A stretch of DNA of 42,508 nt, from positions 1-42,508 of the forward strand of contig JAGVPM010000041.1 of the NCBI GenBank assembly GCA_020052235.1. The letters are read 5' to 3'. How positions within the stretch are numbered: the stretch's first letter is position 1; each line of letters starts with the position of its first letter. The notes under the pieces were generated by a model, which was given only the letters and a program-made list of their open reading frames with translations, did no database searches and had not been told where the DNA came from. This DNA comes from Candidatus Goldiibacteriota bacterium (GTDB taxonomy: Bacteria > Oederibacteriota > JAAXVQ01). The position numbers and the translations under genes are program-made. Shown here piece after piece: positions 2 through 21,909 of the stretch.

Positions 2-3000
2 GGTGTTTATCTCACGCCGAAAGGTGAGTGGGTTAGTTTGGCCCAGGGAGTGCTCGTGAACGGGCCCTCCACGATTGACTTGACCGAAGAAAATCCTGAG
101 TTTGCCGGGACGAAGCCAGTTAAAGATCAGTTCAGCCAAAAAACGATTACCATGAATATCTATAAAACCAAGCATGGCATCATTGTGACTGCTGAAAAAA
201 TTACCGGCAATGTATTCACCAACCGGGTGATAAAGGGCGAAATTAAGGGTAGCGATATTTATCTGAGCCGGGACGGTTCTTGGATTTCTTCGTTCAACGG
301 CCGCACGATTCACGGTAAAGTCTTGCTCCCCAACGGCATTACGGAAAATCCCTATTTGCGTGAAAGTACTCTGGACTACGGACAGGAAATTGAAATTATC
401 ACGGAAAAGGATAATGTCCGCCATACCGTCGCGCTTGAAAAGGGTAACTTCCAAAATGGTACCTATAATGGTACCTATGTAGATGCCAAAGGTAATTTGT
501 GGACCATTGCCTCGGGGCGCTGGATTATTGAGGACGGAATTCTTCCTTCTGAGAAATCTAAAAATCCATTTGAAGTTGGGGTTGAATTTAAAAATTGCAA
601 ACCGGTCGCTATTATGACCGTCAAAGACGGTATATCGCATACCATTCACATCAGTGAAAAAGGGAAGTTGGTGAATGGCACTTATATTGATAAAAACGGC
701 GACCTGCAGGAATTTAATGAAAAAGGGACCATTGTGCGGGGAACGATTCGCGATAAGGGGTTCCCGAATGAATTGTTCGTCAAACAAATTGAAAGCGCCG
801 GACCGTTGGCGCTGGAGCAGAGTTTTTACGGCGCCCAAGGCATAACCTCCAAAGTTGCCAGCGGGCGGCTGGGGATCGGGCTTTCGGACATTCCCGTGCG
901 TTTGTATGTAGGTGCGGCCATTGATCAGACGGACGCCTTTCCCGCTGGAATCGGTCAGAAGCAAGATCCGGTCCGGAGCGTATTGACACCACGTTTTGGT
1001 TTGGAGATCAATCCCACCTCGAAAATATGGAAAATATTTATCGATCTTGGTTTTTCACCGCGGGCTTTTGGGTATGATTTTCAATCCGGCGGTGACCAGA
1101 ATAACGCCAATTTGAACGGCCGGGTCACGTTCCGGTTAAAAGATACGGAAAAACAACGGATTGATTTGATGCTTGGAATAGATGCCAACCAGAGCAATGT
1201 GGATAAAAGCTCCAAGCCCAGCGTTTCCGGGACGATTGGTATAAAAATAAGCTTTGTCAATTTTCTGAATACAGTGAAACACTCGTGGCGCGTTTTACGA
1301 GGAAATGCTGATTTCAATTATGGCTTGGTTGGGTCTGTAATAGGCTCAGGATTTTTCCTGGCCATGGCTGGATTTATTCTTTTGGCCAAAGCCGCGAAAG
1401 CGCTCAATTTTCCACGGTTTGCGGATTTGGCTGAATTGAAAGCCTACCAAGATTTGCGGGATAATCCGGCGGTTAGCGCGCCTTGGCATGCCCTGGGCTA
1501 TGAACAGGCCGGTCAAATTTATTTAGATAAAGAGGCTTTACTTCGCTTGCCCAAGGCTGTGCGTAATCTTTTCATTCAACACGAAGAACAACACAAACTG
1601 GGAGGTCCGGAGGAAGCGCTCGCTTTCCATGCCATGTACATGAGCGCATTGCAATCCTTGCCTGCTTCAGTTCGTGGTTTGATTTTAGGCCGGCGCGACA
1701 TTGCGATTGGAAGGATTATGTGGAAAGGATTGGTTACCCTTTCTGTCGCAGTTTTTCTGTCTATATTTTCCGTGATGGCGTTTGCCCAAACGGCCAGTGA
1801 GTCTGTGCAGCGAATTGCCTGGCTTTCCGAGGCTAAGGCCATGGCGTCCCGGGTTCAGGAGATAAAAGAGCAAGATCCCAAAGCCGCGCGGGTTTGGGCC
1901 GGCGTGGGTATGGATAATCGCGATATCCCGGCCATGGCGTCCTATTTCTCGAAAATCGGGGCCCGGGTGGCGGCGATTAATTTATTCCAGGATTGGTCAA
2001 AAGATGCGGATAAAATTGTTCTGGAAAACGCGCGGCAGGTTATTGCCAATGGCGCGGTTCCGATTATTACCTGGGAGCCCTGGAAAGCTTGGGGTGAAAA
2101 AACGCCCCAAGTGATTTCCTTAAAAGCTATTGCCGCTAGGGAGTATGATACTTATATTATCAATTATGCCAAAGCTCTCAAAGCGCTTGGCCAGCCGGTG
2201 ATCTTGCGCTGGGGTCATGAGTTCAATGTAGAAACCAATTATCCCTGGGCCGTAGGGCAAGGCAACAGCGCCAGGGATTATAAAGCTGCCTATATTCATA
2301 TTCATAATTTATTTACGCAACCCCAAGTTGGCGCCAATAATGTAATTTGGATGTGGTCGCCCAATGTCGAGTCTCATCTCGGAACTCACGACAACCTGGC
2401 GCAAGCCTACCCGGGAAGCCGGTATGTGGATGTGGTGGGTGTCAGTGTATATAATTTACTCATGCCCAAATGGCGTGAATTCGATGAGATTTTTGGCCCC
2501 TTCCAAGCCGCATTGGCACGCTTTTGCCCGGATAAACCGGTTATCCTAGCCGAATTGGGAACTTCAAAAACCGGCGGGGATGCCGCACAGTGGTGGAAAA
2601 ATTTCAGGGCTTCCTTGAGCCAGTATCCTCGAATCAAGGGTTTCCTTCAATTTGAGGCCAATGTAGGCCAAGGAAAAAATTTCCGTTTGGAAGCAGATGC
2701 CGCCGGATACAGGGATTTGGTTAAGGATTCCTCCGTGGGCGTAACTGGGACCGGTTTTATCAAGTCACTGGGTATTACACGGAATGGCACGCCTTTGGAA
2801 TTTAAACGTCAATATATTAATATCTTCAATGCTCTGGGCATGAGCCTGCGCGTTTTAACCCGCTTGGGTCTGGGCGAAGCCCGGACATATTATGGTTTTG
2901 CAGGCACGGTGATCGGCGGGGCGTTATTTATCGGGGTGGCTCTGTCCATTGTTTATGCAAAACTAACCAAAATTATTCCGGGAAAAACATTAACCTTCGG

Positions 3001-5641
3001 TTCAGGGGCGGACCTTTCGCCTTACCGTTATTTCAGCGAAGATGTTCCCGGAGGGACTCCCTGGCAGCGTTTAAGAATCAGGGCCGGCCGTTGGTTCTCG
3101 ATTTCTTATGAACACCAGGGTGAGATTTATTTGGATAAAAACGCCATGCTCCATTTGCCGGTTTTTGTCCGTTCACTGTTTTTGGCGCATGAAGAGGCAC
3201 ATCGCGGGCAAGGGCAGGCGGTTCAAAATGAAGTTAGTGCGTTTACGGAAATGTATTTGCGCCTTAAAAATATGGTTTTGCCCATCCCATCGCAGCCTGA
3301 AGAAGTATTAGGACGCCCGAGTGCACCCGTTGGGCAGGGTTTGATCCAAAAGATCCAAACCTTGCAGCCGGGCTTTGGTGAACGCCAGAAAATACCCGGC
3401 AAACTTTTCCCATTGTTTTTAAAACTAAACTCATTGGGCATAACCGGATTGCTTTTCCCGGTGGTTTCCTCCATGCAAATCACAGGCGGGCACCTGCAAG
3501 CTAATCCAACGGCTTTGACGATTGCTCTGGCAGGAGTCATCGGGTTGCTGGCCGTGAAAACTCTAGCCTATGCTTGGGCGAACAGTGGGAAACCAGTCAC
3601 GCTGACTGCTGACCAGCGCCAAGAACTCCGGCAGCTCGCTGGGTTGGAAGCTAACGCCAATTTGCGGTTCGGCACGATTTCGGAAACAAGGCAGGGCAGT
3701 TTTATGAGCCGTGTTCTGGCTGGCTCCGTGGCTGAATATCAGGGTGGGAACGGCCAAGTGCCTACGGCCTATTTGGCCGACGGGCTGGTAAGGACATTGT
3801 TTGAGTTAGGGCAGAAAGCCCAGTGGACCCCTTGGGAACGCATTCAATTCGGTGTGGCGCGCGCCATGGCGCAATCGGCCGTGAACCGCGAATTGACCGA
3901 GTGGGCCATACCGCAAGTTGGAGAAAGCGCTTCTATTTTGACGCAAGTGCAAAATAGTGTAGCCCGTCAGTTAACGGCTCAGGCCTTGGAAAAGGGCGTA
4001 GGTGTGTTTGCCGGTTTAGCCGCCACCAGTGGCATTTTGTTCGGTGCTTTGGTTGCTGTGATTGCCGGCGTGCCGGTGATGGCTATCGCGGCAACCGTAG
4101 GGTTATTTGGCGGCGTATTGGGCTTACTCTATGCGTTTGTTGTGGAACGCCATTACAATAACCTTGAGGCAGGAGAAAAAGAAGCTGAAGGCCTCACGGC
4201 GGAAGTTTTGGCCGGCGATTTTCTCAATGGTGGAAAGTATCAAGTTATGGGTAGCGAAAATGTGGCTGCCGATGTTTCGGATTTGTACGGCGCAGTGCAA
4301 AATATGCTCCGCGTTATTAAACCGGTCTGGCAAGTGCCGGATGTGGTCCGCTTGATGTCAGATCAGAAAAAGAGCGGTTTTGGGAAGGAATTGTCCACGT
4401 TGGTCGAATACATTAGAAATAATACCTTTGAAGCGGACAGCCCATTGGCGCAGTTGCAGCAAACGGTTATTGAGGCGGGCAGTTTGTCTGGAGAAAAAGC
4501 GGCTGTGGAGGTGGCATTATTGCAGAATGCGGCGCTGGCTTCCTTGCTCTCGGCTGCTTCGGAAGTCAATGTTCAGCGGGCGGATATTACGTCGCTGGCG
4601 GACAAGCGGGTTTTTATTCAAAATGCACCCGAGGCTTTTGCTACCTTGGCCCGGCAGGTTGAAACAGCGCTCCAGGAAGCCAGTACGGCGGGCATCGGCA
4701 ATCTGCAGGATTTACAGGATTTGGCCGAAGGTTTGCGGGCTTTAAGTCAAAAAGCGCAGGGTGAAGCCAAGGGGAAATTGATGCTGTTGGATAAGGCAAT
4801 AACAGACAAGCTGATGCCTTTTATCCTGGGGTATGACCAGAAAAATACCCAGCAGCAGTTTGCGGATTTCGGCCAGGATTATGACCAAAAGAGCGCCGTA
4901 GTGACAGAAGGTTATACTATGGAAAATATGACCACTGTCCAAGGGGAGATTGTCCAGGTGCCGGTACCTCGGGTTCTGGAGCTGACCAGCCGCAAGCCGG
5001 TTTCGGCTTCGGAATGGAGGAAGAAGGTTCAAGAAAAAGAAGCTAAGGCAGCCGGATATTATCAGAGCCAGGTTGCCGCGCTTCAAGCTGCCCGGCAACC
5101 GGATGCAATTTCCAGTACTTTCAGCCGGTTGCTCGCAGCTGGCGCCGGTATTTTTGGAGGAACGTTTATAGGCAGGGCATTGAATACCTTGGCCCTGGAT
5201 TTGAACCATGAGGCCTATATGCTGGCGCAGGCAAAATCCGGTCAATACCGTTCGAGCATTATGCAGAATATTTTAAAAAATAAAGGTAGCGGTCTGCAAA
5301 CTTTAATCCAGCGGCGGGATTTAAATCGGGTTCAGTTCCAAAAACAGATGTTATCCGCCTTGATCCGTGTTTTGGATGCCAATCCGCAGGATATTACCTT
5401 GCTCCAGGATGTCATTGATATGATGAACCGCGTTGCCCCATCATCCGGCGTAGCGGCTGGAAAGATCCAGGGCAAGAATTTTATGCTGCCTAATATTTTA
5501 GCAGGACGCATCATGTACGGTCGTTTGGGTAAAATGCTTGGGATTTTAAGAGGTTTTCCGCAGGGTGTTGTTGAGCTGGATGATAATGTGGAAAATATCA
5601 TTAAGCGTCAAATCATGCGGTCGGTTGCTCAAGCAGCCTAA
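2..5641 (+). CDS. Giant multidomain membrane protein with GH26-like domain between two HExxH modules (5' end outside window)
   Basis: The frame is open from the first bases (nt 2), so the start lies upstream; a TTG at 38 is only an internal codon. Residues here count from nt 2. Residues 1-250 hold spaced G-x-Y/W beta-repeats (MORN-like in look), followed by a beta-rich stretch to about 420. Two similar modules follow, each a hydrophobic segment (about 441-465 and 965-987) and a zincin-like HExxH motif: HEEQH at 527-531 and HEEAH at 1063-1067, both preceded by G-x-IYLDK and followed by an acidic residue that could be a third ligand. Between them, residues 595-915 resemble GH26 mannanases, with a candidate acid/base Glu740 in RWGHEFN and nucleophile Glu851 in ILAELG. 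More membrane segments lie near 1172-1194 and 1334-1381, then a long helical tail. GH26 normally acts on beta-mannan; the protease activity of the HExxH modules is inferred from the motif only. Confidence 0.8.
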   Translation, partial: GVYLTPKGEWVSLAQGVLVNGPSTIDLTEENPEFAGTKPVKDQFSQKTITMNIYKTKHGIIVTAEKITGNVFTNRVIKGEIKGSDIYLSRDGSWISSFNGRTIHGKVLLPNGITENPYLRESTLDYGQEIEIITEKDNVRHTVALEKGNFQNGTYNGTYVDAKGNLWTIASGRWIIEDGILPSEKSKNPFEVGVEFKNCKPVAIMTVKDGISHTIHISEKGKLVNGTYIDKNGDLQEFNEKGTIVRGTIRDKGFPNELFVKQIESAGPLALEQSFYGAQGITSKVASGRLGIGLSDIPVRLYVGAAIDQTDAFPAGIGQKQDPVRSVLTPRFGLEINPTSKIWKIFIDLGFSPRAFGYDFQSGGDQNNANLNGRVTFRLKDTEKQRIDLMLGIDANQSNVDKSSKPSVSGTIGIKISFVNFLNTVKHSWRVLRGNADFNYGLVGSVIGSGFFLAMAGFILLAKAAKALNFPRFADLAELKAYQDLRDNPAVSAPWHALGYEQAGQIYLDKEALLRLPKAVRNLFIQHEEQHKLGGPEEALAFHAMYMSALQSLPASVRGLILGRRDIAIGRIMWKGLVTLSVAVFLSIFSVMAFAQTASESVQRIAWLSEAKAMASRVQEIKEQDPKAARVWAGVGMDNRDIPAMASYFSKIGARVAAINLFQDWSKDADKIVLENARQVIANGAVPIITWEPWKAWGEKTPQVISLKAIAAREYDTYIINYAKALKALGQPVILRWGHEFNVETNYPWAVGQGNSARDYKAAYIHIHNLFTQPQVGANNVIWMWSPNVESHLGTHDNLAQAYPGSRYVDVVGVSVYNLLMPKWREFDEIFGPFQAALARFCPDKPVILAELGTSKTGGDAAQWWKNFRASLSQYPRIKGFLQFEANVGQGKNFRLEADAAGYRDLVKDSSVGVTGTGFIKSLGITRNGTPLEFKRQYINIFNALGMSLRVLTRLGLGEARTYYGFAGTVIGGALFIGVALSIVYAKLTKIIPGKTLTFGSGADLSPYRYFSEDVPGGTPWQRLRIRAGRWFSISYEHQGEIYLDKNAMLHLPVFVRSLFLAHEEAHRGQGQAVQNEVSAFTEMYLRLKNMVLPIPSQPEEVLGRPSAPVGQGLIQKIQTLQPGFGERQKIPGKLFPLFLKLNSLGITGLLFPVVSSMQITGGHLQANPTALTIALAGVIGLLAVKTLAYAWANSGKPVTLTADQRQELRQLAGLEANANLRFGTISETRQGSFMSRVLAGSVAEYQGGNGQVPTAYLADGLVRTLFELGQKAQWTPWERIQFGVARAMAQSAVNRELTEWAIPQVGESASILTQVQNSVARQLTAQALEKGVGVFAGLAATSGILFGALVAVIAGVPVMAIAATVGLFGGVLGLLYAFVVERHYNNLEAGEKEAEGLTAEVLAGDFLNGGKYQVMGSENVAADVSDLYGAVQNMLRVIKPVWQVPDVVRLMSDQKKSGFGKELSTLVEYIRNNTFEADSPLAQLQQTVIEAGSLSGEKAAVEVALLQNAALASLLSAASEVNVQRADITSLADKRVFIQNAPEAFATLARQVETALQEASTAGIGNLQDLQDLAEGLRALSQKAQGEAKGKLMLLDKAITDKLMPFILGYDQKNTQQQFADFGQDYDQKSAVVTEGYTMENMTTVQGEIVQVPVPRVLELTSRKPVSASEWRKKVQEKEAKAAGYYQSQVAALQAARQPDAISSTFSRLLAAGAGIFGGTFIGRALNTLALDLNHEAYMLAQAKSGQYRSSIMQNILKNKGSGLQTLIQRRDLNRVQFQKQMLSALIRVLDANPQDITLLQDVIDMMNRVAPSSGVAAGKIQGKNFMLPNILAGRIMYGRLGKMLGILRGFPQGVVELDDNVENIIKRQIMRSVAQAA

Positions 5642-5892
5642 TTGGTATTTATCTCTTTTGGGGAGGGGGGCGGGGAAATTTCTATCCTTTCTCCCCACGT
5701 AGTCCGGACGCTGATGTTAACTTTTTCACGTAATAAATTAAGTGGAATTTATTTTATTTTAAATGTAGAATAATCAGGCTAAAAGAAAATAGGGATTGTT
5801 TTTAAAAAAGCAAAAATTTATGTAATGATTTTACTTCAAAATAGTCTAATTCAATATAGGGCAGTTAATTTTTTTTATTACGGAGGTGTAGG

Positions 5893-6582
5893 ATGAGGAA
5901 AAATGTTGTTTTGGCCGCTCTGTTCGTGGGAGCGCTTTTGGGAAGCAGAGTTTTCGTTCAGGCTGCTTTTACATCTGATATAACCAGTCAAGCCACGGCC
6001 GTTGCGGTTTTAAATTCTCCCAATACGCTCACAGTAACCATTGAAAATGTTGCGGACAACAATCCTGCTGCCCAACTGGGTTGGACGTCCCCCACGAATA
6101 TCTGGGTAGAATCGAATCAGTGTTTTAAAATTGCATATGCGTCCAATGAAGTTAACTGGGGAATTCAAATTTACACGGATAATAAAAATGGCGCGGCTTC
6201 ACCTGCATACACGGGTAATACCTCGGCTGGGTATGAAGGTGCTGGGTTGATCGGCGTTACGGACAGCACGGTCTATGTACCGATGGCTTGGACCGCGTTG
6301 ACAGCCAAAGGATCCCGGCCCACCCTTACCACTGATGTTAACGGTGTATTGCTTTCAAACAATGGTTATGCCTATTTCAAGGATAAATTGCAGAGCACTT
6401 TTTCTGCAGGAAATGACTATATTACCGTTGTAAACACCAGCGGGTTGGCTAAAAATGACGGCACGGGCAGAAATTCGAGCGCTGTTTCGCCGGTCTATGT
6501 ATATATCGATGCCAATTTCAGGGGCGTCGCTAATCAAACATACCGTACTAATCAGTTGGTTATAGAACTGTTTCATCAATAA
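5893..6582 (+). CDS. Secreted beta-rich protein, paralogue of the 7380 gene
   Basis: 229 residues with a clear signal peptide (basic start, hydrophobic core, cut near VQA-AF) and a GGAGG ribosome site 5-8 bases upstream. It is the first gene of a long same-strand series after an AT-rich 250-base gap. No known family is recognised. The mature part is rich in T, N, Y and aromatic residues, and shares long similar blocks with the product at 7380-8054: WGIQIYTDN, a G-AGL-GVT block, VPMAWTA, GYAYFKD and a C-terminal NQTYRTNQL-IEL-HQ. The shared C-terminus ending in alternating hydrophobic residues looks like a final beta-strand. Together with the two-Ig-domain protein encoded between the two copies, this suggests a surface structural or adhesive subunit; that role is inference. 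Confidence 0.75.
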   Translation: MRKNVVLAALFVGALLGSRVFVQAAFTSDITSQATAVAVLNSPNTLTVTIENVADNNPAAQLGWTSPTNIWVESNQCFKIAYASNEVNWGIQIYTDNKNGAASPAYTGNTSAGYEGAGLIGVTDSTVYVPMAWTALTAKGSRPTLTTDVNGVLLSNNGYAYFKDKLQSTFSAGNDYITVVNTSGLAKNDGTGRNSSAVSPVYVYIDANFRGVANQTYRTNQLVIELFHQ

Positions 6583-6588
6583 ATTGGC

Positions 6589-7383
6589 ATGAAATTAGGA
6601 TGGGGCTTTTTAGTGCTCTTAAGCGGGATTTTTACCGGTTTTTCGAGCTCCGCTTATTATACACTCCCGGTTCGCCAGGAATTTGAACTTAAAGCCGGTG
6701 ACGAAAAAGATATTGAATATGTGTTTGTTAATGATGCGGAAAAGGAAAGAGTGATTGAAATTTCCGCTATCGAATGGCGGCATTACGCTTGGAACCGGGA
6801 AATCAAGTTGGAAGACTGGTTGGCGTTTACCCCCAAGCAATTGCGGGTAAGCCCAGCGGAGCAAAAAAAGCTCAGCTTTCATGTCCGGGTTCCGGAAACA
6901 GCACGAGGCGAGTTGGTTGCGATGATTTATTTTTGCGATGCGGACTCAACCCGGCAATATAAAGTTAAATTTGGCGTATCTGCGTATGTGTTGGTGAAAA
7001 ATACCATCCAGCGTGATTTTGAAATTCAAAACGTCATCATCCGCCAGGTGGATGAAAAAGACGGTAAAAATATAAAATTGCAAATTGCTGTCGCGTTATT
7101 TAACCGGGGCAATATTCATTTACGCCCCGCCTTGGAAGCGGAGATTATTGCTCCCGGCGGGAATATGAAAGTGATTTTGAAATTTGGGGACCCGGTTTTC
7201 CCAGGTGAAAGTGTCGTGTATAATGGGGAACTGCCTTTGACCCGGTTTTTAGCGGATGGGGTATATCCAGTCACCCTTGATGTTCGGGAAGCCGGATTGG
7301 AACACGATCGCGTTCAAAAAGGTACGTTGCAGGTGTTAAAAGGTGTGATTCAGTTTAAAAAAAATAATCAAGGTGCTCCATGA
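6589..7383 (+). CDS. Secreted two-Ig-domain protein, PapD-chaperone/DUF916-like
   Basis: 264 residues with a signal peptide (about 1-22). The N-terminal half has the layout of periplasmic pilus chaperones and of DUF916-type proteins: a YVFVN strand, then FTPKQLRVSPAEQKKLSF, a VRVP strand, and RGELVAMIYF. The second half is another beta-sandwich containing NRGNIHLRP. It begins six bases after the previous stop with no good ribosome site, which suggests translational coupling, and its stop overlaps the next start (ATGA). It sits between the two paralogous secreted proteins. In chaperone-usher systems such a protein holds subunits before assembly, but no usher is visible here, so it could instead be a surface protein that binds its neighbours. 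The fold call is based on sequence pattern alone. Confidence 0.65.
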   Translation: MKLGWGFLVLLSGIFTGFSSSAYYTLPVRQEFELKAGDEKDIEYVFVNDAEKERVIEISAIEWRHYAWNREIKLEDWLAFTPKQLRVSPAEQKKLSFHVRVPETARGELVAMIYFCDADSTRQYKVKFGVSAYVLVKNTIQRDFEIQNVIIRQVDEKDGKNIKLQIAVALFNRGNIHLRPALEAEIIAPGGNMKVILKFGDPVFPGESVVYNGELPLTRFLADGVYPVTLDVREAGLEHDRVQKGTLQVLKGVIQFKKNNQGAP

Positions 7384-8054
7384 CGCGAGCAAGCCGTATT
7401 TTCATTAAAAGCATCAGCCGAGTTTTTCTTTTGGCGTTTTTTTTCGCCTCTTGGGTTGTGTCAAGTTGGGGTGCTTTCAGCTTAACCGTCACTATAAAAA
7501 ACATTTCAGACAATGCCGCCGTTTCCCAAGCCACTTGGTCCAGCGTAACCCCGACATGGAAGGAAGCGGATCAATACTTGGAAGTAGATTATTTTTCCGA
7601 TCAAAGTGGTTGGGGTGTCCAGATTTATACGGATAATCACCACGCCGGCGCCGATCCGGCGTATACAGGCGACACCACCGCGGGTTGGGAGGGAGCGGGG
7701 TTGGTGGGAGTGACAGCGCCTTCATATTTCGTGCCTATGGCCTGGACCGCTCAGACGGCCACGGGCACAGCCAGACCGGACATTATCACGACGGATATTT
7801 ACGGGACTTTGGATTCCAATAAGGGTTATGCGTATTTCAAGGATCCCATGCAACAAGTGGTCGGGAACAATCCTTTTGTTCCCGGTGATGACTATATTAC
7901 GCTGATCAATGTCAACGGTTTGGCAACCAATAAACCTTCCTGGAGAATCGCGGCATCCTCTCCGGTTTATGTCTATTTGATTGCTAATTTTATAGGGCGG
8001 CCCAATCAAACTTATCGTACCAATCAGTTGATTGTTGAATTATACCACCAATGA
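7380..8054 (+). CDS. Secreted beta-rich protein, paralogue of the 5893 gene
   Basis: 224 residues with a signal peptide ending near SSWG-AF. The start overlaps the stop of the chaperone-like gene by four bases and has an AAGGTG ribosome site. It lines up along its whole length with the 5893 product, including VTI-N-(V/I)-DN, WGVQIYTDN, WEGAGLVGVT, VPMAWTAQT, GYAYFKD and the C-terminal NQTYRTNQLIVELYHQ, while differing at many positions between these blocks. The pair therefore looks like an old tandem duplication with the chaperone-like gene between the copies. No family is recognised; a surface subunit role is inferred from context. Confidence 0.75.
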   Translation: MTRASRIFIKSISRVFLLAFFFASWVVSSWGAFSLTVTIKNISDNAAVSQATWSSVTPTWKEADQYLEVDYFSDQSGWGVQIYTDNHHAGADPAYTGDTTAGWEGAGLVGVTAPSYFVPMAWTAQTATGTARPDIITTDIYGTLDSNKGYAYFKDPMQQVVGNNPFVPGDDYITLINVNGLATNKPSWRIAASSPVYVYLIANFIGRPNQTYRTNQLIVELYHQ

Positions 8055-8067
8055 TCAGAGCGGCGGG

Positions 8068-8808
8068 ATGATGAACAACCAAAGCAGCTTGATTAAAAGA
8101 AAACGCTACATCCGAGCCTGGATACCTTTATGCCTGGCGGCGCTGGCAATTTCCCTGTCTGCGTCAGCATTTGTTTCGGTTCAACTTTATTCATTTTCCG
8201 CCGAAGCCGTGGTGAACAACAACCAACCTGCCCCGATTCCCAGGGCTTTATCCATTCAAGCCGATGACATGGTACGCGGCCGTGACTATACATTGACAAT
8301 TCCGGTTTTGGATACCGTGGGACATCCTATGGCGAATTTTGTGGTTAAAATCGTATTGAAAGGCCCGGATGGGAAGAGTCAAACTTTTTTTGCCAATACG
8401 GATGCTCAAGGCACGGCAACTTTGACGGTTACTGCATCCGAAATTAACCAGCTTGGGCAATACACAGTTACGGTTTCTGGAAACAACCTGAATGAGACCA
8501 CTACCGAGTTTATGGTTTTGGAACCCAAAAAAGGCGGCGTGGCCGTTGGTCCGAATCCTTTTTCACCCAGCGATCCTATTTACAATCAGGCGCGTTTTAT
8601 ATTTTTGGAACCTGGCCCGGATCCGGTTACGCTCGAAATATACAGGATGGACGGCGCCAAGGTGTTTAGCCATGAGTTTTCTCCCGTGGAGACCATTTCA
8701 TGGCGCGGCAACAATTTCCTGGATCAACGCGTTGCTGGTGGAATTTATATTTGGCAAATAAAAACCGGTGCCCGGAAAATTAACGGCACCGTAGTGGTTG
8801 TTCGCTGA
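8068..8808 (+). CDS. Exported protein with C-terminal FlgD-Ig-like domain
   Basis: The frame is open from a TTG at 8032 inside the preceding gene, but ATG codons at 8068 and 8071 give a normal start, a basic N-terminus and one membrane/signal segment (about residues 18-42). The middle part, roughly 60-160, reads as an Ig-like domain (VKIVLKGPDGK, then TVTVSG). The last 85 residues match the FlgD-type Ig domain often found at the C-terminus of exported proteins: VGPNPFSP, then VTLEIYRMDGAKV, a WRG-N motif and GGIYIWQIK. Such domains act as surface-sorting or attachment modules in some phyla (type IX secretion) and as hook-cap domains in flagella. It lies between the paralogous secreted proteins and a PorV-like barrel, which fits a surface-sorted component. 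Confidence 0.7.
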   Translation: MMNNQSSLIKRKRYIRAWIPLCLAALAISLSASAFVSVQLYSFSAEAVVNNNQPAPIPRALSIQADDMVRGRDYTLTIPVLDTVGHPMANFVVKIVLKGPDGKSQTFFANTDAQGTATLTVTASEINQLGQYTVTVSGNNLNETTTEFMVLEPKKGGVAVGPNPFSPSDPIYNQARFIFLEPGPDPVTLEIYRMDGAKVFSHEFSPVETISWRGNNFLDQRVAGGIYIWQIKTGARKINGTVVVVR

Positions 8809-8839
8809 TGAGGGCTGAATCCAAACAGGTGATGAACGA

Positions 8840-9796
8840 ATGAAAAAAATTTGCGCTTTAATCATCGTGTCACTCCTGGCTTCCACGAGTTATGCGGATT
8901 TTCCCTATATGCAGTCCGGTGCCAGGCCTGTGGGCATGGCAGGTGCTTTTATTGCCGTGGCCGATGATATCAATGCTTTCTTTTATAATCCGGCAGGGCT
9001 GCAAGCTATTCAGCGGCTGGAAGCCATGGCCATGTATGGAAAATTATATTGGGGATTATCGGACGAGAGCAATTTATACGAAGGCACTGCGGCTTTGGCG
9101 TACTCCATCCCAGTTTATGGTACTGTCGCGCTGGGGTGGACAGGCCGGGGTCTTAGCGATTTTTATCAGGAAGACGCCTTCAAAGTCGGGTACAGCGCAA
9201 AAGTCCCGCGCGGTTGGGTGCAAGCCGTGAAATTAAAATTTTTATCGAATGTTTCGTTTGGGATTAATGCAAATATGTATATGGTGCATTTGGCTGAAAA
9301 TGACTATACCCGGTTGAGCTCATCTATTGCCAAGTTGTCCACCACAGGATTTAGCCTGGATGCCGGTTTGCTGGTTAAAATAGGCGAATTTAAAGCCGCG
9401 GTGGTGGCCAAGGACATTATGGAACCCGACCTAACCCTGACAGCGGCTGATAAGAATGTTTTGCCAATGGAAATTTCCGCAGGCATTTCTTATCGTTGGG
9501 TGGAATTTGGAAAATTGCTTGCCACTGTGGAGGTGATTTCCCGGGTGCAGGATTACAAAGCGCGCGCAGGACTTGAAAAATGGTTTTTCGAAAATCAGTT
9601 AGGTTGCCGGGCGGGGTTCGGATATGGCCGCGATCAGGGCGCGGATTACGCAAGTGACGCTTCCGTAGGGTTCAGCTATATCTTAAAAACAGCGTCCAAT
9701 ATGCCTGGTTTGGATTATGCCTTTACCTATCCGTTAAACGGTGGTATTGAAAATACGTGGGGAAGACATTTTTTTTCAATTTTTGTCAAATGGTGA
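8840..9796 (+). CDS. PorV/UPF0164-like outer-membrane beta-barrel protein
   Basis: 318 residues with a signal peptide cut near SYA-DF, and an AGGTGA ribosome site. The mature N-terminus has the signature of the PorV/PorQ/UPF0164 group: GARPVGMAGAFIAVADD followed by FFYNPAGL. The rest alternates short polar and hydrophobic stretches typical of barrel strands. Members of this group are FadL-like barrels; PorV is the shuttle protein of type IX secretion, while other members have no known role. The position directly after a gene with a FlgD-Ig-like C-terminal domain makes a surface-sorting link attractive, but no other type IX component (PorU, SprA, GldKLMN) is visible in the window. Confidence 0.8.
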   Translation: MKKICALIIVSLLASTSYADFPYMQSGARPVGMAGAFIAVADDINAFFYNPAGLQAIQRLEAMAMYGKLYWGLSDESNLYEGTAALAYSIPVYGTVALGWTGRGLSDFYQEDAFKVGYSAKVPRGWVQAVKLKFLSNVSFGINANMYMVHLAENDYTRLSSSIAKLSTTGFSLDAGLLVKIGEFKAAVVAKDIMEPDLTLTAADKNVLPMEISAGISYRWVEFGKLLATVEVISRVQDYKARAGLEKWFFENQLGCRAGFGYGRDQGADYASDASVGFSYILKTASNMPGLDYAFTYPLNGGIENTWGRHFFSIFVKW

Positions 9797-9848
9797 TATT
9801 TTGCATAAGCATAGAACACTTCATTTAAATGCCCGGATTGATGGGAAA

Positions 9849-11693
9849 ATGACCCAGCGTCTTTTAATGGGTTGTTTTTTATTCTTTTTTTTCTTGCCGA
9901 TTTTTTGCTTTGGGCAGGAACCAGGAAAACCGGAAGAGCAAACCACTTTAAGTGCTGTGCTGGGCATGCGCGGACAGGCAACACATTCTGCCGGGTTGGG
10001 AAGCGTCTACCATTCCGCCCTGGAACAATTTTTAACACTAAATATGCTGGGCACGCTTGGTCCCGAATTTGATTTTACCTTCTCATTCACCCTGATTAAT
10101 CCCGGCGATGAAAGCATCAGCCCGTATTATCAATCCGGACGGCGTTTGTTGGATAACCTAGTCATGGACACTCGTTTTCAAAAATGGCTGGGGCGTATTG
10201 GTTTTTTATGGGGTGACTTGTCTTCATTGACCTTTGAAGCTCCGAATTCCAAACGTCCTTTGTTATTTGACCGTGATCTCAATGCCGGAGAGGAAAAATT
10301 GCCGGATTTTTATAAGCGTTTATTTAAGGAAGGATTTTTAAACGAAGCCCAGCTTAATCCAATGGAATATTTTTCCGGCGGCCGGGGCGGTTATTATTGG
10401 TTGTATCGCCCCTTAATGGGTGTGCACGTAGAGAATAATGATTTGCCCTGGGGTGGATACTTTAAAATTTATTCCGGAAAAGCGGAGGGCTATTTTTCAA
10501 AGCAAAAGTTCCTTTCGGAGCAGGGCGGACGTATAGGGCTCAACTTTGATAAGGCTCAATGGCTGGAGAAAACGAAGGTTGAAGTTAATGCCTACAACCA
10601 ATCCAATGACCGGGGCGAAGTCTTGGGTCTTGGCGGGGACCCGGCATCTGCACTGCAAAACAACACTGTGGTTTCAACCCTATTGGGGTCGCAGCTTATT
10701 CCCAATTGGAAGTTTGAAGGCGAATTAGGCAGGAGTTTTTTCAACAGCGAGACCCAGGGTTATGAAGATTGGGCGCTTAATCTGGAAAATACATTTTTTC
10801 TTGAAAAAATATTCGCTTGGGATTTCCGTCTGCCGGTTTCGGTAACTTATCGTAAAATTAATCCTGACTTTATTGGCCAGCAAAATTCGATTATCGACAG
10901 CGCCATCTATGCCTCTAAGCGGGTTTATCAATCCAGCTTGGGGGATTCAAGTTTATTATATAATAATGAAGAAACTTGGCAGATGGATGCCAAGTTCGGC
11001 GGGGAGCAAACCCTGCTGAGACTTATTTATGGCGGGCGCCATCAAATTCACGATACCGGCAATCAGGTAGCTTCGACTCATTTTTTAGATTCCATTCATA
11101 ACAATGGTGCGGCCTGGTGGCATATTTTTTTCACCAATTATGGTCAGACGTCCAACCCGGCTGCTCAAGCGTACAGCAGCAATGCCCAAGGTTCGCGTAA
11201 AATTGAGACCATGTACTACCGTGGGAATACGGAGACTATTACGCTAAAAAATCCCATTCCGAGCCGGAAGTATCTTTCGTTTTTGAATTTTGAAATCCGG
11301 CAGAATCTTCAGCCATGGTTTGATCTTTCCAACCTGTTTTTTCTCCAGCTTTATTCAGATTTTCAAAATTTGCACGAACAAGTCGAAGGTTCGCCTTTTT
11401 TTAAGAGTTCTGACCTGCTTTTCCAATCGTATGCGCAAGCGGTGCTGGTTTACCAGCTGACGCAGCCGGTGTTTGTTTCCGCCGAATATGGATTGGAAAC
11501 TTGGCTCAGCGATCAGGTGGAACCTGGTGTTCGTTATTTAGATAAAAGTTACGGCGCCGGAGTTGATTTAATGTTGGATGATCGGACGTATGTTTTTTTT
11601 CGCTGGAAGCATTATCAGCACACAGATCAGGTTATTTTGGATAATAATTTCGGGGCGGAACAATTTTATTTGGAGTTTAAAAACTATTTTTAG
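9849..11693 (+). CDS. Predicted large outer-membrane beta-barrel protein
   Basis: The frame opens at 9741 inside the preceding gene, but ATG 9849 places a clear signal peptide at the start (MTQRLL followed by a Phe-rich core, cut near CFG-QE), so the shorter 614-residue form is preferred. The mature protein is rich in Tyr, Trp, Phe, Asn and Gly in alternating patterns and ends in Phe (EFKNYF), the usual last residue of proteins assembled by the BAM machinery. No TonB box, plug domain or known family is recognised. It is followed by a second protein of the same type. A role as a porin or scaffold for oligosaccharides is inferred from the neighbouring carbohydrate-binding genes. Confidence 0.65.
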   Translation: MTQRLLMGCFLFFFFLPIFCFGQEPGKPEEQTTLSAVLGMRGQATHSAGLGSVYHSALEQFLTLNMLGTLGPEFDFTFSFTLINPGDESISPYYQSGRRLLDNLVMDTRFQKWLGRIGFLWGDLSSLTFEAPNSKRPLLFDRDLNAGEEKLPDFYKRLFKEGFLNEAQLNPMEYFSGGRGGYYWLYRPLMGVHVENNDLPWGGYFKIYSGKAEGYFSKQKFLSEQGGRIGLNFDKAQWLEKTKVEVNAYNQSNDRGEVLGLGGDPASALQNNTVVSTLLGSQLIPNWKFEGELGRSFFNSETQGYEDWALNLENTFFLEKIFAWDFRLPVSVTYRKINPDFIGQQNSIIDSAIYASKRVYQSSLGDSSLLYNNEETWQMDAKFGGEQTLLRLIYGGRHQIHDTGNQVASTHFLDSIHNNGAAWWHIFFTNYGQTSNPAAQAYSSNAQGSRKIETMYYRGNTETITLKNPIPSRKYLSFLNFEIRQNLQPWFDLSNLFFLQLYSDFQNLHEQVEGSPFFKSSDLLFQSYAQAVLVYQLTQPVFVSAEYGLETWLSDQVEPGVRYLDKSYGAGVDLMLDDRTYVFFRWKHYQHTDQVILDNNFGAEQFYLEFKNYF

Positions 11694-11726
11694 TTATTCT
11701 TGTGTTGAGGGGAAGGAGGCTTTACT

Positions 11727-13493
11727 TTGAAGCTGGTATTCCGCATGATATTAGTTTTAATCCTGGCCGGTTTTTCTCAGAGCTTATGGGGAGCCGAGAG
11801 TAGTGCACGTGCCGAAAAAGCGAAAGATGCTACGGAATATGCGGGCGATCAGAAATTGGAAACTGTTTCGGTACCGGTGGCACACGATTTGGATCCAAGC
11901 GGGAAAGTTAAATTAGGTGCAGCCGTAAACGCTTCCTACATTGATTTCACCTTAGCCGGCCCAGCCGCAGGCGCGACCAAACGGTATCGTCCCTGGAATG
12001 AATATATTGATCTGCTTTTTTATGCCAACCCTTTGGCAGAATTACAAGGACAGGCCGTTTTTCGCCTGCAAAACGTTTTTGGGGGCTATTGGGGGGAACG
12101 CAACAGCTATGCCGTGCGGCGCCTTTTTATCAAAGGTGATTATATGGTGAAATTTTATCTCGGAGATTATAATGCCAAGCTCACGCCATTGACTCTGATG
12201 ACCAGCGAAGACGGCAGCGAATTGGACGCCCGGTTTTTCAAGGAGAAAAAGCAGAAAAATCGTGATGAACTTTATTTGCTGCCGGACGGCACATGGCCAT
12301 TGACCGGGTATCAAATCGGGTATTATCAAGATTTGGATGTAAAAAAACATATGGGGATAGGGATTAAAAGTTTCGGAGCGCGTTTGGGCACCCAGGGAAC
12401 CGCGACGGATTATTTTGCGTTTGCACACGACCAATATTTGGCAGCCGTGGCCGGGGATCTTGATTTGACCAAAGAATTTCATGCCGGTATCGCGTTGATT
12501 ACTCAATTCGACGTTCAGGAAACCGGAGACCAGCAGGCTGCTGTTTTCAGGAACAAGATATCCGATGTCAACGGCCAGTTATACTTGTGGCCGGATCGTG
12601 TAGCTATTCAAGGAGAATGGGCGACCAGTCAGAGTAATACGGACACAGGCCGCACAGACTATTTTTCCGATCAAGCAGTCCAGTTGGGTGTTTTGACGGA
12701 ATTGGAGTATTTTAAATTGGATGCCAAGCTGTTTCAGGTTGGAGGCGACTATTTCGCACCGGGGGCTCAAACCCGCATCCAGGATGCTGGGATTAATTTA
12801 CCTGTGATTACGGGTAATAATACCTGGGATTCTTCCAGCAACGCGTTTTCCTCTCCGTCCATACAACCGCATTACGACCCGGCGTATCCATTGAATAAAT
12901 ACAATAATCGTATTTTGGCTTCTCAACGTTTGGGTTTTTCCCCCTATGAAAATAACCTTTTTCCCTATGGACCGGCCACTCCCAATCGGAACGGTTACCA
13001 AGTTGCGTTGCGCCTTGATTTTTTAAAGCCATATATCCAGCCGGTTTTAAAATATGCGACTGCCTGTGAAATTAAAGATGCTACTGAAGACGGGAAGCGG
13101 AATTTTGTCCTCAAGGAAGCCGGGAGTCGTTTCTCGTGGGAATTTATTACGGGAACCATTGGCTACCAAAATGAAGATACCAGGAATGGGAATCATATCG
13201 CCATGACGACCACCACGATTCGCGGAGGTTTGGAGTTTAAGTTTCTTTCAAGTTTGGAATTGGCTTTGGGGTATAAACACCAGGATTTTAATGGCAGTGA
13301 ATTTATAGGCAATGTGTTTCAACCCTATATGGATCGAATTATCGACCAATATGGCGCGGGTGTTACCTACCACTGGTCGAATCGTGTTGAAATGGTTTTG
13401 GGTTATCAGATGAGCAAAGTCATGGATTTATTCAACGACCTCGGCAGCATGAGTGCGCACGAGGTTGACGCCAGTGTGAAAATGTTTTTTTAA
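11727..13493 (+). CDS. Predicted outer-membrane porin-like beta-barrel protein
   Basis: 588 residues. The TTG start at 11727 is supported by an AAGGAGG ribosome site seven bases upstream and by the signal peptide that follows directly (cut near LWG-AE). The mature protein has many alternating strands (LGAAVNASYIDF, MVKFYLGDYNAKL, LELALGYKHQDF) and ends in KMFF, a BAM-type terminal Phe. It is similar in style to carbohydrate or alginate-type porins but no specific family can be named. Thirty-three bases separate it from the preceding barrel gene and nine from the lipoprotein gene that follows, so all are probably co-transcribed. Confidence 0.65.
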   Translation: MKLVFRMILVLILAGFSQSLWGAESSARAEKAKDATEYAGDQKLETVSVPVAHDLDPSGKVKLGAAVNASYIDFTLAGPAAGATKRYRPWNEYIDLLFYANPLAELQGQAVFRLQNVFGGYWGERNSYAVRRLFIKGDYMVKFYLGDYNAKLTPLTLMTSEDGSELDARFFKEKKQKNRDELYLLPDGTWPLTGYQIGYYQDLDVKKHMGIGIKSFGARLGTQGTATDYFAFAHDQYLAAVAGDLDLTKEFHAGIALITQFDVQETGDQQAAVFRNKISDVNGQLYLWPDRVAIQGEWATSQSNTDTGRTDYFSDQAVQLGVLTELEYFKLDAKLFQVGGDYFAPGAQTRIQDAGINLPVITGNNTWDSSSNAFSSPSIQPHYDPAYPLNKYNNRILASQRLGFSPYENNLFPYGPATPNRNGYQVALRLDFLKPYIQPVLKYATACEIKDATEDGKRNFVLKEAGSRFSWEFITGTIGYQNEDTRNGNHIAMTTTTIRGGLEFKFLSSLELALGYKHQDFNGSEFIGNVFQPYMDRIIDQYGAGVTYHWSNRVEMVLGYQMSKVMDLFNDLGSMSAHEVDASVKMFF

Positions 13494-13502
13494 GGCGGGA
13501 TT

Positions 13503-14177
13503 ATGTTTTATTTTAGATATATTATTTTATGGGGCTTAATGGGCGGGATGCTTTTCGGTTTAGGCGGTTGCGCCAAGAGCAATCCCGTATTTCCGGTTGC
13601 GCCGGAACCCCAGGTCATCTCGGGAGCTCTGGATGATTTTGAAGAAGGAAGTTCCCAAAATAAATTAGGCGGTCAATGGTTTGTTTATGCCGATGCCTCG
13701 GGTACTCGTATAAGTCCGACCCCCAATACGTATACGGCCATTGCCATGTATCCCTTTGGATCGCCCGCAACACCCCGGTTTTCTTTTCGCTTTTCAGGAG
13801 TCTTGGCCCCGGCCGACCCCGGCCGGGTGATTTTTGCAGGTTTTGGATGTACCCTGAACTCTTCGGGAGCTTCGGTTGATCTTTCACGTTATCGCGGCAT
13901 CGAATTTTATGCCCGTTCCGGGGTTGGAACCCGGGTTACTTTTTTGCTTAAAAAACACGCACTTACAGCGGCCAATTCAGACTTTCAAATTGTCGTGCCC
14001 TTGACACCGGATTGGAAAAAAATCCGAATTGATTTTTCGGAGTTAAAGCAACCAGCAACAGCTTTTCCTATTTCTTTTTCATCCCGGGACATTGACTCGT
14101 TGCAATGGCTGCCTGCCGCCGGAGAAACTCAGTTTGATTTTCAAATTGATGACGTGAATTTTTATGGGTATAATTAA
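13503..14177 (+). CDS. Lipoprotein with CBM11/CIA30-like carbohydrate-binding domain
   Basis: 224 residues. The N-terminus is a lipoprotein signal peptide with lipobox LGGC, then a short spacer rich in Pro. The domain beginning at about residue 42 (LDDFEEG, then GGQWFVYAD) has the order of CBM11 and CIA30-type galactose-binding-like folds: a DLSRYRGIEFYA strand, WKKIRIDFSELKQP, and a final DFQIDDVNFYG strand. Family members bind beta-glucans, or act as assembly factors in other settings. Attachment to a membrane next to barrel genes suggests that it catches glycans at the cell surface; the ligand cannot be read from the sequence. Confidence 0.75.
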   Translation: MFYFRYIILWGLMGGMLFGLGGCAKSNPVFPVAPEPQVISGALDDFEEGSSQNKLGGQWFVYADASGTRISPTPNTYTAIAMYPFGSPATPRFSFRFSGVLAPADPGRVIFAGFGCTLNSSGASVDLSRYRGIEFYARSGVGTRVTFLLKKHALTAANSDFQIVVPLTPDWKKIRIDFSELKQPATAFPISFSSRDIDSLQWLPAAGETQFDFQIDDVNFYGYN

Positions 14178-14195
14178 ACCCATGAGGGAGCGCTT

Positions 14196-14888
14196 ATGTT
14201 AAAAAAATTAATACTCCTGCCGCTGGTTTTGACGGTCAGTTTGGTGTTGGCCAATGGATGCACCAAAAGGAATCCGGCAGCGCCCGCTGATGCTTTTGTT
14301 TTAACCCCTACGGCCACGCCGGTTACTCCCAATCTTCTCCTGATTGATGACTGCGAGACCGCAACGGTCATCAACAAATGCGGCGGCGCTTGGTATGTGT
14401 TCAATGATGCGGGCAATGGCGGGACGTCTCAAGTGGTTCCCAATCCGTTTCAAATGACGCTGCTTACGGGCCAGGGTGCGCAAGGCTCCAATGGATATGC
14501 TGGGATTACCGGAACAGTTACCACTGCGTTTGTCTTCGGGTTTATTGGCATGGGTACGGCTTTGGCGCCGGCCAACGGTAAAGTAGATTTAAGCCAGTAT
14601 CAGGGCGTTCGTTTTTTTGTCAAAGGCGACGGCAAAACGTATAGTTTGAAAATTCAAACTTCGAATATTACGGATTATGATTATTATCAGGTCATATTTT
14701 CGACCACCGGAGCTTGGGAAGAGAAAATTCTTCCATTTACGGATGCGATTTTTAAACAAGGCGGATTCGGCACACCAGTGTCTTTTCTACAGGCAGAGCA
14801 AAGTGCCACAGGGTTTCAGTGGCAGACCGTCGGGCAACCTTTCAGTTCAGTTGAACTGGAGATTGATAATATTTTTTTATATAAATAG
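14196..14888 (+). CDS. Lipoprotein with CBM11/CIA30-like carbohydrate-binding domain (second copy)
   Basis: 230 residues with a lipoprotein signal peptide (lipobox ANGC at about residue 24), preceded by GAGGGAG. The domain starts with LLIDDCETA and GGAWYVFND, followed by DLSQYQGVRFFVKG, W-EKILPFTDAIFKQGGFG and a terminal VELEIDNIFLYK strand. This parallels the neighbour at 13503 and the product at 27042, so it belongs to the same local family. It lies 18 bases after the neighbour's stop and 14 bases before the next gene. It probably binds polysaccharide at the cell surface; the sequence does not show which one. Confidence 0.75.
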   Translation: MLKKLILLPLVLTVSLVLANGCTKRNPAAPADAFVLTPTATPVTPNLLLIDDCETATVINKCGGAWYVFNDAGNGGTSQVVPNPFQMTLLTGQGAQGSNGYAGITGTVTTAFVFGFIGMGTALAPANGKVDLSQYQGVRFFVKGDGKTYSLKIQTSNITDYDYYQVIFSTTGAWEEKILPFTDAIFKQGGFGTPVSFLQAEQSATGFQWQTVGQPFSSVELEIDNIFLYK

Positions 14889-14902
14889 GAGGGGGAATTA
14901 CA

Positions 14903-16036
14903 ATGAAAAAAGCTTTAGCGATTTTAAGTACAATTTGGGTGGGCTTGTTTTTAGCAAACCCGGCTTTGGCATTAACTGCAATTTCACTTGAAAATGATAA
15001 TTTGACCAAATGGGAATCGTTCGCGGACAATAAATCTGACAAGAAGACGCAAATTTCACATGAAAAAATCGCCAATGAAAAAGGTAAGGACGTATTGAAA
15101 GTGAAGTATTTTTTAGATAAAGAAAGTTGGTGCGGAATTTTACATCATTCCATGAACCAGAAGTGGACTGCGGCTAAAAGTATCTCGGTTTTAATCCGGG
15201 GAACGCAAGACAGCATGGTACGAATTTCGTTTTTGGATTTAAATCATGTTTCCTATATCAGTGAAGTGCAAATTTCCGCGGAATGGAAAACTCTGACCAT
15301 TCCAATAGAAAAATTTAAACAAAATCCTTTTTTTCAGCCCGAAAATGCTAAGAAAGAAAAACCGCTCAATCTCAATATGGTCTATCAAATGCAGTTTGAA
15401 CCGTTGACCACAGGGAATGGTATTTTTTACTTGTCGAAAGTTGAAGTGAATGGCATCTTGTTGACATCGGAGAAAGTTGATAATGGCGTGGGTGCGAAGT
15501 CTACGGTTTCCGAGGAAGTGTTCGAAACTTTCGAGCGGAATCAATTGATCAATAAATATGTTTTTGAGGATAAGCAAAACGACGCTTCCATCAACGTTGT
15601 AGTTAAGACCAGAAAAAACGCTAAAAATAAAAAGAATGAAAAATATCTTGATATCGTCTATAACTCGGGTAAGGGCGAGTACGGTTGTGGTGTCGGTTTT
15701 GGTTCTTCACTGGGAGACACTTCTACCGCGTTTAATGCCAAAGGCACGACCTTGCTGCAAGTGGTGGCCAATGCACCCATAGGGATGAAATTTCAGGTCT
15801 CTGTTAATGAGGCGGAGAGCCATGATGGTGAAAAATGGACGTCGGTTTGGCAAAGTGGAGCCGGCGCTTGGAAGCGTTATGTATTGCCCATGAATACGTT
15901 TGAGAGAAATCAATACGCCGGCAATCAGACTGGAAATAATAAATTCGATTTGGAAAATGTCCAGACCGTGGAAATCGAGATTGCTCAAAAGCAAGGCAGC
16001 GGCACCATTATGGTGGATGACATTGTTTTTCAATAG
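14903..16036 (+). CDS. Secreted protein with two CBM11/CIA30-like domains
   Basis: 377 residues with a GGAGGGGGA ribosome site and a signal peptide ending near ALA-LT. There is no lipobox, so the protein is exported free or kept by contacts. Two beta-sandwich domains follow: about 25-190 (WCGILHH, AEWKTLTIPIEKF, IFYLSKVEVNGI) and about 210-377 (YGCGVGFG, AWKRYVLPMNTFERN, GTIMVDDIVFQ). Each repeats the order strand, W-K-x-ip-F and terminal D/V-rich strand seen in the neighbouring lipoproteins. The first domain is notably close to the N-terminal domain of the glycosidase encoded next, including an NPFFQPENAK block matching NPYFQPPNVK. A soluble glycan-binding helper of that enzyme is a reasonable inference. 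Confidence 0.7.
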   Translation: MKKALAILSTIWVGLFLANPALALTAISLENDNLTKWESFADNKSDKKTQISHEKIANEKGKDVLKVKYFLDKESWCGILHHSMNQKWTAAKSISVLIRGTQDSMVRISFLDLNHVSYISEVQISAEWKTLTIPIEKFKQNPFFQPENAKKEKPLNLNMVYQMQFEPLTTGNGIFYLSKVEVNGILLTSEKVDNGVGAKSTVSEEVFETFERNQLINKYVFEDKQNDASINVVVKTRKNAKNKKNEKYLDIVYNSGKGEYGCGVGFGSSLGDTSTAFNAKGTTLLQVVANAPIGMKFQVSVNEAESHDGEKWTSVWQSGAGAWKRYVLPMNTFERNQYAGNQTGNNKFDLENVQTVEIEIAQKQGSGTIMVDDIVFQ

Positions 16037-16044
16037 GCAATGAC

Positions 16045-16087
16045 GTTTCGCTGCCGTCCACCCTTGTAAGGTGGACGGCAGCGAAAC
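16045..16087 (+). terminator. Perfect 18-bp intercistronic hairpin
   Basis: The arms 16045-16062 and 16070-16087 are perfectly complementary with a seven-base loop. The hairpin lies in the 103-base gap between the double-CBM gene and the CBM-glycosidase gene, starting nine bases after the first stop. The bases after it (CTTAAAATTTCC) include only short T runs, so it is either a weak or partial terminator, or a processing/stability element separating the expression levels of the flanking genes. Confidence 0.6.
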
Positions 16088-16139
16088 TTAAAATTTCCCA
16101 CCTAGGGGCTTAAAAAATAAAAAGGATCAAAGAAACAAT

Positions 16140-18659: not shown

Positions 18660-18669
18660 CGGATTATTC

Positions 18670-21600: not shown

Positions 21601-21909
21601 CGCCCGCTCCTTCCTTCCTGGTTGTTTACAGAGGCTTCTAAAGATTTGGAATATGAATTGGACGGGGGGATTCATCGGCACCGGATACCAGTTCGGGCGT
21701 TCGCGTTTATGTTTTTAGGAAAAACCTTGGTGGTGGTCCACAATCCATCCGGTACGGACACGTTTGCACCTAATGTTAAAATTTATCTGATCCGGCTTTG
21801 GCCCATGTCCGGAACGTCACTCACTTTGGAAGGCGGGGTCATACCTCCACCATTTGCCGCACGTGTCCGTAATCGTGAATTTGCTAAAATTGAACTTTTT
21901 TTAAAATGA
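18670..21909 (+). CDS. Large GH94/GH149-like (alpha/alpha)6 beta-glucan phosphorylase-like protein
   Basis: The frame opens at a TTG (18610) inside the preceding gene, but ATG 18670 is just after its stop and is preferred, giving 1079 residues. There is no signal peptide, so it is cytoplasmic. The N-terminal part is a beta-sandwich of the glycoside phosphorylase type; the C-terminal part contains GNYRDVNQNRRNDI, GEGYWTDHWTYNLDL and KPNWYDALNGLP. The Asp656 in the last motif corresponds in position to the catalytic Asp of the GH94 motif DWND, also seen in the two GH94 genes of this window. The length of about 1080 residues fits 1,2-beta-oligoglucan phosphorylases of GH94 or GH149 beta-1,3-glucan phosphorylases, and not the ~800-residue cellobiose type. 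The substrate remains open. It is the last gene of the long operon. Confidence 0.6.
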   Translation: MGTGKNVQAEEMQARASFTVRDYNAKSPFAGFLPGLGGKFGIPTWVFYVNRGQGVCSFGAQDKDHAFMEYLPATHAYQLVNQQGFRTFLNIQRGRSSFLYEPFQYLRPGYGRIEQDMTVSEERIRLRDFNYRAGLETTVEYFSLLNENLGGLVRTLVMKNQGKTALILEVADGLPVLLPYGLEEDGLKNRRYLMEAFLETQWLTPRVPLFKLKIEESDSPEVNAVHAFHFGIALEAYRGREQTLRPLIDPGKIFGSFKDFSFPKAIPTSASLDRQVEGNQFPCFFTCRRLVLAPGEKVSFFYLFGRSDQAADLKAKIPQMSRSAFFERKSIESRQAVATILRNSLTVSRSRDFDAYCRQNYLDNVMRGGFPDEVGSAKVFYLYGRKHGDLERDYNKFNLPATYCSQGAGNYRDVNQNRRNDIFFLPCTGEYNIKKFMNLIQLDGFNPLLVKEVMLAIPLAKLKDFEKAAGCTLRAAGFMPDVPFIPGEFLLQLETKKLIAHAALEKVYAAILEYGDLKDQADFGEGYWTDHWTYNLDLIDSFLAVFPDRLEELFFGPREYIYFDSSRVVLPRSKRFRVEGGRIRQFHSVQEDETKKALIQARCESKNALRTRNGVGMVYRTNLAGKLVCLAVNKLASLDPSGIGVEMEADKPNWYDALNGLPAQLGSSVSETFELKRLLLCLDYASQKVRDVKIKVPVELYEFYRVLIRLLTHPGRKTDRSADFIYWDHANTLKEDFRKKTKLGISGLESTMTHRELQALIQAGLKKCDEGIRKAFDSAAGIYRTYFTHDLKVDRSLRPRSGSVKYLPFFLEGNVHALRLERDREVCRRLHRQVKKSALFDAKLKMYKVNASLAGESFAIGRTRGFTPGWLENESIWLHMEYKYLLELLRTGLYTEFFSEIRNTLVPFLLPETYGRSIYENSSFIVSSVHPDTNRHGKGYYARLSGSTAEFIHMWLLMCVGPTPFFVDEKNHLHLSFRPLLPSWLFTEASKDLEYELDGGIHRHRIPVRAFAFMFLGKTLVVVHNPSGTDTFAPNVKIYLIRLWPMSGTSLTLEGGVIPPPFAARVRNREFAKIELFLK

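Follow-up and report, generated by a model that had tools for sequence, protein, structure and literature searches.

A predicted giant membrane protein of an uncultured bacterium with a lichenase-type GH26 domain between HExxH modules

Giant proteins of uncultured phyla are known, and their working is obscure. The giant open reading frames (ORFs) of Omnitrophota are described as huge frames that encode multiple membrane helices and have few annotated domains; large extracellular domains are predicted for them, and a role in polysaccharide degradation is suspected (PMC10066038). Viral polyproteins, which contain their own proteases and internal signal sequences, likewise unite many unrelated units in one chain. 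In a gluzincin, the active-site half runs from a hairpin through an HExxH helix to an acid-bearing helix, and in BlaR1 and MecR1 a zincin lies in the cytosol between membrane helices while the sensor is outside.

The stretch of DNA analyzed here (the window; 42,508 nucleotides) is the entire contig C123 of one genome, G000, from a Candidatus Goldiibacteriota bacterium, and was compared with a congener (G001), with members of other genera (G003 and G005) and with further genomes. It opens with the C-terminal part of a giant protein in which a GH26 glycosidase domain lies between two HExxH modules, an architecture that the initial annotation held to be undescribed and for which we found no published description. 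The protein, once joined to its probable front, and a giant of genome G004 both exceed 20 kb and carry several membrane helices, as the Omnitrophota giants do. Unlike those, they belong to an order of another, candidate phylum (FCPU426/Firestonebacteria), and recurrent HExxH modules with swappable glycosidases are not mentioned for the Omnitrophota giants in the available part of that report (PMC10066038). The likeness to viral polyproteins is an analogy only, as the window giant is bacterial and its cleavage is conjectural. What the locus offers is a testable rule for such giants, combining zincin-like modules, exchangeable glycosidases and a shared N-terminal block and C-terminal cap. If the modules are proteases, these proteins would be self-processing bacterial polyproteins, and there would be an answer to the question of how a chain of 5,000 to 13,000 residues that bears unrelated enzymes is able to function.

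The giant reading frame and its predicted topology

The ORF at 2-5641 encodes 1,879 residues without a stop and is open at the 5' edge of the window; residue numbers of window motifs follow frame-2 numbering. Its features are as follows.

2-5641, + strand: open frame of 1,879 codons, C-terminal part of a giant protein, 5' truncated at the contig edge
2-790, + strand: end of a beta-rich repeat array (units GVYLTP..GEWVS..G..VNGP..DL) continuing from contig C171
797-1276, + strand: beta-strand-rich segment 5' of module 1, probably barrel- or sandwich-like judging from its sequence
1325-1381, + strand: predicted membrane helix 1, out to in, N-terminal part of module 1 (hydropathy, positive-inside rule; AF2 helix 12-43)
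1490-1645, + strand: HExxH module 1, with IYLDK at 506-510, HEEQH at 527-531 (nt 1580-1594) and third-ligand candidate E538 (1613-1615)
1730-1786, + strand: predicted membrane helix 2, in to out, signal-peptide-like, ending AFA/Q (hydropathy, sequence)
1889-2776, + strand: GH26 domain, lichenase-type, with acid/base E740 (2219-2221) and nucleophile E851 (2552-2554)
2897-2953, + strand: predicted membrane helix 3, out to in, N-terminal part of module 2 (hydropathy, charge bias)
3098-3256, + strand: HExxH module 2, with IYLDK at 1042-1046, HEEAH at 1063-1067 (nt 3188-3202) and third-ligand candidate E1077 (3230-3232)
3413-5638, + strand: C-terminal block, with membrane helices near 3413-3469 and 3512-3568, plus others
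5051-5638, + strand: C-terminal cap ending ..QAA, present in several giants of the order

The front of this protein is very probably encoded on another contig of the same genome, C171, where a frame of 6,556 codons (2993-22660, L007) is open at the 3' end. Residues 1-82 of the window frame are 45% identical (BLASTP, 2e-19) to residues 6475-6556 of the C171 frame, its last repeat unit, and the two ends can be joined in frame given at least one missing base. We infer this join, since the contigs do not overlap. The C171 frame carries a second GH26 domain and a third HExxH module (HEKTH), and the joined giant, about 8,400 residues long, would have HExxH modules in three places (HEKTH, HEEQH, HEEAH) and two GH26 domains. 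Its length would be about 25 kb, of which 19.7 kb lie on C171 alone; the giant of G004 measures 28 kb. A comparable join in genome G002 is backed by an exact 127-base end overlap between contigs C91 and C85, which yields a single ORF from N-terminal block through C-terminal cap. The start block of this ORF shares 46-57% identity with that of C171, and its end block has its homologue in the last part of the window frame. The C-terminal block is common to G002, G003 and G005 (32-34% identity over 500-750 amino acids). A Pfam search with the protein of ORF 2-5641 matched nothing noteworthy apart from GH26. Giants with the C-terminal cap (window 5606-5641; L015, L021, L022, L025, L026) all end in AA, mostly QAA; the final two residues are invariant in the six copies, and this ending could conceivably serve in degradation or sorting.

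Each module of this giant lies between an out-to-in helix, which is followed by positive residues, and an in-to-out helix, and the latter is signal-peptide-like after HEEQH and HEKTH, as in MWKGLVTLSVAVFLSIFSVMAFA/Q. From hydropathy and charge bias, the HExxH modules are predicted to be cytosolic, and the GH26 domain and repeats to be outside. This is a simple prediction, because positive residues precede the first helices as well. In two related giants (G005:C211, L019 residues 214-240, and G002:C91), the helix before a glycoamylase-like domain ends FVGIGC or FVSIGC, which is lipobox-like and corresponds in position to AFA/Q of the GH26 version.

The HExxH modules and the GH26 domain

Duplicated modules made of a membrane segment, IYLDK, HExxH and a trailing acidic residue had been noted in the initial annotation, and all these motifs do lie in one frame. 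The two modules are homologous rather than alike by chance: their Smith-Waterman score is 178 against 30 +/- 5 for shuffles (maximum 58), and 133 against 25.5 +/- 4.5 when the membrane part is left out. Chance HExxH motifs are ruled out by an expectation of 0.013 in the ORF and by the enrichment across giants given below. An alignment of eight copies of the module from five genomes spans 148 columns, in which HExxH and features resembling IYLDK are conserved. HExxH is present in all nine strong profile matches, each with an acidic residue in [ED]-x-x-A-[FY] (Asp in the copies of C171 and G001:C255), so that a third-ligand candidate is conserved at the level of sequence. Distant copies in G002, G003 and G004 have spacers of up to about 28 residues and retain E-x-x-A-Y; HExxH has been lost in a related G002 stretch, near residue 5594 of the C91 giant. 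Among 384 genomes, 45 of them from the same phylum, modules were found in six, all of one order. Scans of IMG/VR with the module and with GH26 gave no confirmed match.

AF2 models of both modules have the same order of elements: membrane helix, beta-hairpin, HExxH helix, and a helix that starts at the conserved acid, in agreement with the alignment, where E or D opens the helix following the HExxH helix. The structured core is small. Modelled from seven sequences with moderate confidence, it reaches pLDDT of about 70-88 in module 1 (hairpin, HExxH helix and Glu helix) and of about 60-87 in module 2 (hairpin and two helices). By this predicted secondary structure and the E/D-x-x-A-[FY] motif, the module fits a minimal gluzincin, and we infer that it binds zinc. 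With gluzincins of clan MA (M48, M56/BlaR1 and M78/ImmA types) it shares an HExxH helix with an E-x-x-A helix after it and, in the AF2 models, a hairpin before them. It differs from them in its much smaller core, in the Phe or Tyr after Ala, in a spacer from HExxH to the acid that spans about 5 to 28 residues, and in having no family match: Pfam, NCBIfam (peptidase families included) and PDB sequences gave none for the module, and Pfam peptidase families including M56 matched none of the eight copies. A Foldseek search of the PDB with the module 1 model, hampered by its long membrane helices, returned no match with E below 3, and comparison identified no cleavage site.

The GH26 assignment of the initial annotation was borne out by a PF02156 match of 1.2e-9 (38.5 bits against a curated cut-off of 20.2, and 41.5 bits in the genome search), with both catalytic glutamates where they had been placed, in RWGHEFN (736-742, nt 2207-2227) and ILAELG (848-853, nt 2543-2560). 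The domain had been called a mannanase-type barrel, and here the comparison with solved structures points elsewhere. A profile built from two sequences, the window domain and its C171 paralogue, has as its top PDB matches only CtLic26A, the endoglucanase H of Clostridium thermocellum (2bv9, 2v3g; 1e-38 to 1e-40, over the whole domain), whereas mannanases and xylanases score no better than 1e-10, with partial coverage. Because CtLic26A is matched far above the mannanases, the domain is best named lichenase-type on this profile comparison, and mannanase specificity was rejected. The counterparts of E740 and E851 in CtLic26A are E109 and E222 (profile alignment, 2bv9), which we take to be its acid/base and nucleophile, and the TWEPW motif is common to both proteins; unlike CtLic26A, the window domain sits between membrane modules in a giant protein. 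Homology suggests a TIM barrel for it, while an AF2 model made without homologs has pLDDT mostly below 60. In phage records, relatives of this GH26 are distant only. Downstream, the window encodes GH5, GH52, a weak GH44/39-like match, CBM9 and CBM11 proteins, an ABC sugar uptake set and a GT2, a gene content in keeping with polysaccharide use.

Exchanged glycosidases and shared blocks in related giants

The module-flanked glycosidase slot is, by sequence comparison, a recurring design within one order and not a one-off, because GH5, GH26 and a glycoamylase-like domain adjoin the modules in relatives. In the congener, contig C255 aligns with window residues 95-577 (39% identity, 5e-79, 510 columns), that is, beta segment and module 1, and then has GH5 (1.3e-38) where the window has GH26. 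Its contig C309 carries GH26 followed by a module, and here GH26 and module 2 are continuous with the window over 470 columns (45%). In G005:C211 and G003:C150, HExxH modules flank a glycoamylase-like domain that is 45% conserved between the two genomes; its assignment is weak, with PF10091 at 3.8e-4 at best, below cut-off in the member shown, and PDB XCC2207 at 0.003. At the end of G001:C255 (L009) and the start of G001:C309 (L018), the giant frames are continued by DHQ-synthase-like and PFK-like (6.5e-15) pieces, which were left out of the analysis because the contigs are possibly chimeric.

In genome G000, 11 ORFs open with the N-terminal block of C171, among them a second giant at the other end of the window.

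40266-42508, + strand: start of a second giant ORF, N-terminal block, open at the contig end

Its block (40320-41657) is 44% identical to that of C171 (1.6e-130). Genomes of the order have 8-34 such matches each. Among the sampled genomes, no block was seen in own-phylum genomes outside the order, and five genomes beyond the phylum carry it (G131, G186, G159, G070 and G118), in frames of up to 13,841 amino acids. The 27 giant frames contain 27 HExxH motifs where 2.08 would be expected, an enrichment of about 13-fold, and permuted motifs occur 0-9 times, which argues that zincin-type motifs are a general part of the giants; in 17 frames of paralogous giants, HExxH was seen 12 times against 1.61 expected.

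Self-processing and alternative roles of the modules

We tentatively favor, at somewhat less than even confidence, the reading that the modules are built-in, membrane-proximal, gluzincin-like proteases of a membrane-threaded giant of about 8,400 residues with interchangeable glycosidase cargo. Minimal zinc sites would hang in the cytosol between an out-to-in helix and a signal-peptide-like helix, and loops across the membrane would display the cargo, in this case a GH26 beta-glucanase of the lichenase type. The modules would cut the giant chain in cis or in trans, signal peptidase perhaps joining in at AFA/Q-type sites, and the glycosidase segments would end up as separate enzymes, anchored or released. 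Proteolysis and self-processing, the latter already raised as a possibility in the initial annotation, are conjecture. Three points lead us to prefer them: no strong module copy lacks the catalytic Glu, zincin motifs turn up repeatedly in giants whose cargoes are unrelated, and a polyprotein is a sensible reading of unrelated enzymes strung together with internal signal-like helices.

The strongest rival to self-processing is a structural role, which we regard as possible but doubtful. The module would then be a hairpin, zinc-stabilized or degenerate, that has no peptidase activity and returns the chain to the membrane between exported domains; the glycosidase would simply be displayed at the surface. 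The very small core, the lack of a peptidase-family match and the variation of the third acid between E and D all agree with this, but a structural zinc has no need of the general-base Glu of HExxH, which every strong copy has kept, and HExxH is enriched in paralogous giants over both composition and permuted motifs. The initial annotation had imagined a surface machine, with modules and GH26 both outside, that cuts glycan and protein. The beta-rich repeats and a GH26 of exported type would suit it, as would the large extracellular domains predicted for Omnitrophota giants (PMC10066038). We consider it unlikely, because the modules are predicted to be cytosolic and the glycosidase outside: a single hydrophobic helix parts each module from the exported domain on each side, and the charge bias puts the modules inside.

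That same predicted topology follows the logic of BlaR1 and MecR1, so that an exported glycosidase, or its binding site, might sense glycan and a cytosolic zincin might then cut a regulator. Such signalling appears quite improbable, since M56 and the other peptidase families of Pfam gave no match, the intact catalytic glutamates of GH26 argue for an enzyme rather than a sensor alone, and zincin motifs are also found in giants with no recognized glycosidase. An assembly or frame artefact that fused unrelated genes is the least credible explanation and is largely refuted. These are contigs of metagenome-assembled genomes in which such genes are often broken, and two G001 contigs end in chimeric-looking PFK-like or DHQ-synthase-like pieces; but GH26 with module 2 (G001:C309) and the beta segment with module 1 (G001:C255) are linked in independent assemblies, and the linkage of module and C-terminal block is conserved in G002, G003 and G005.

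Self-processing may extend to a class of bacterial polyproteins in which an N-terminal block, common to 8-34 ORFs per genome, heads chains of unrelated enzymes, membrane helices and signal-like segments, zincin modules cut the chains into working units and cassettes such as GH26, GH5 and glycoamylase are swapped, a proposal that we hold to be rather doubtful as it stands. The cargo of the paralogous giants comprises methyltransferases with NUDIX and LOG, HTH, SecY with SecA pieces and TolC-like domains, NTP transferase and LysM; it is mutually unrelated among giants, as expected of polyproteins.

An ORF of 9,337 codons in G004 (C4:2956-30966, - strand; L041/L042) contains SecY (2e-47), SecA pieces and TolC-like OEP domains, and long frames of G005, G003 and G007 have accessory SecY domains alongside a normal stand-alone secY; possibly, these form an accessory Sec system inside giant proteins. 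The motif HExxExxGxxH occurs five times in giants (C171 residues 860 and 1636, G000:C120, G004:C8 and G004:C12). Examples such as HEALEINGATH and HEVLEMAGLGH are metzincin-like, with Glu replacing the second His.
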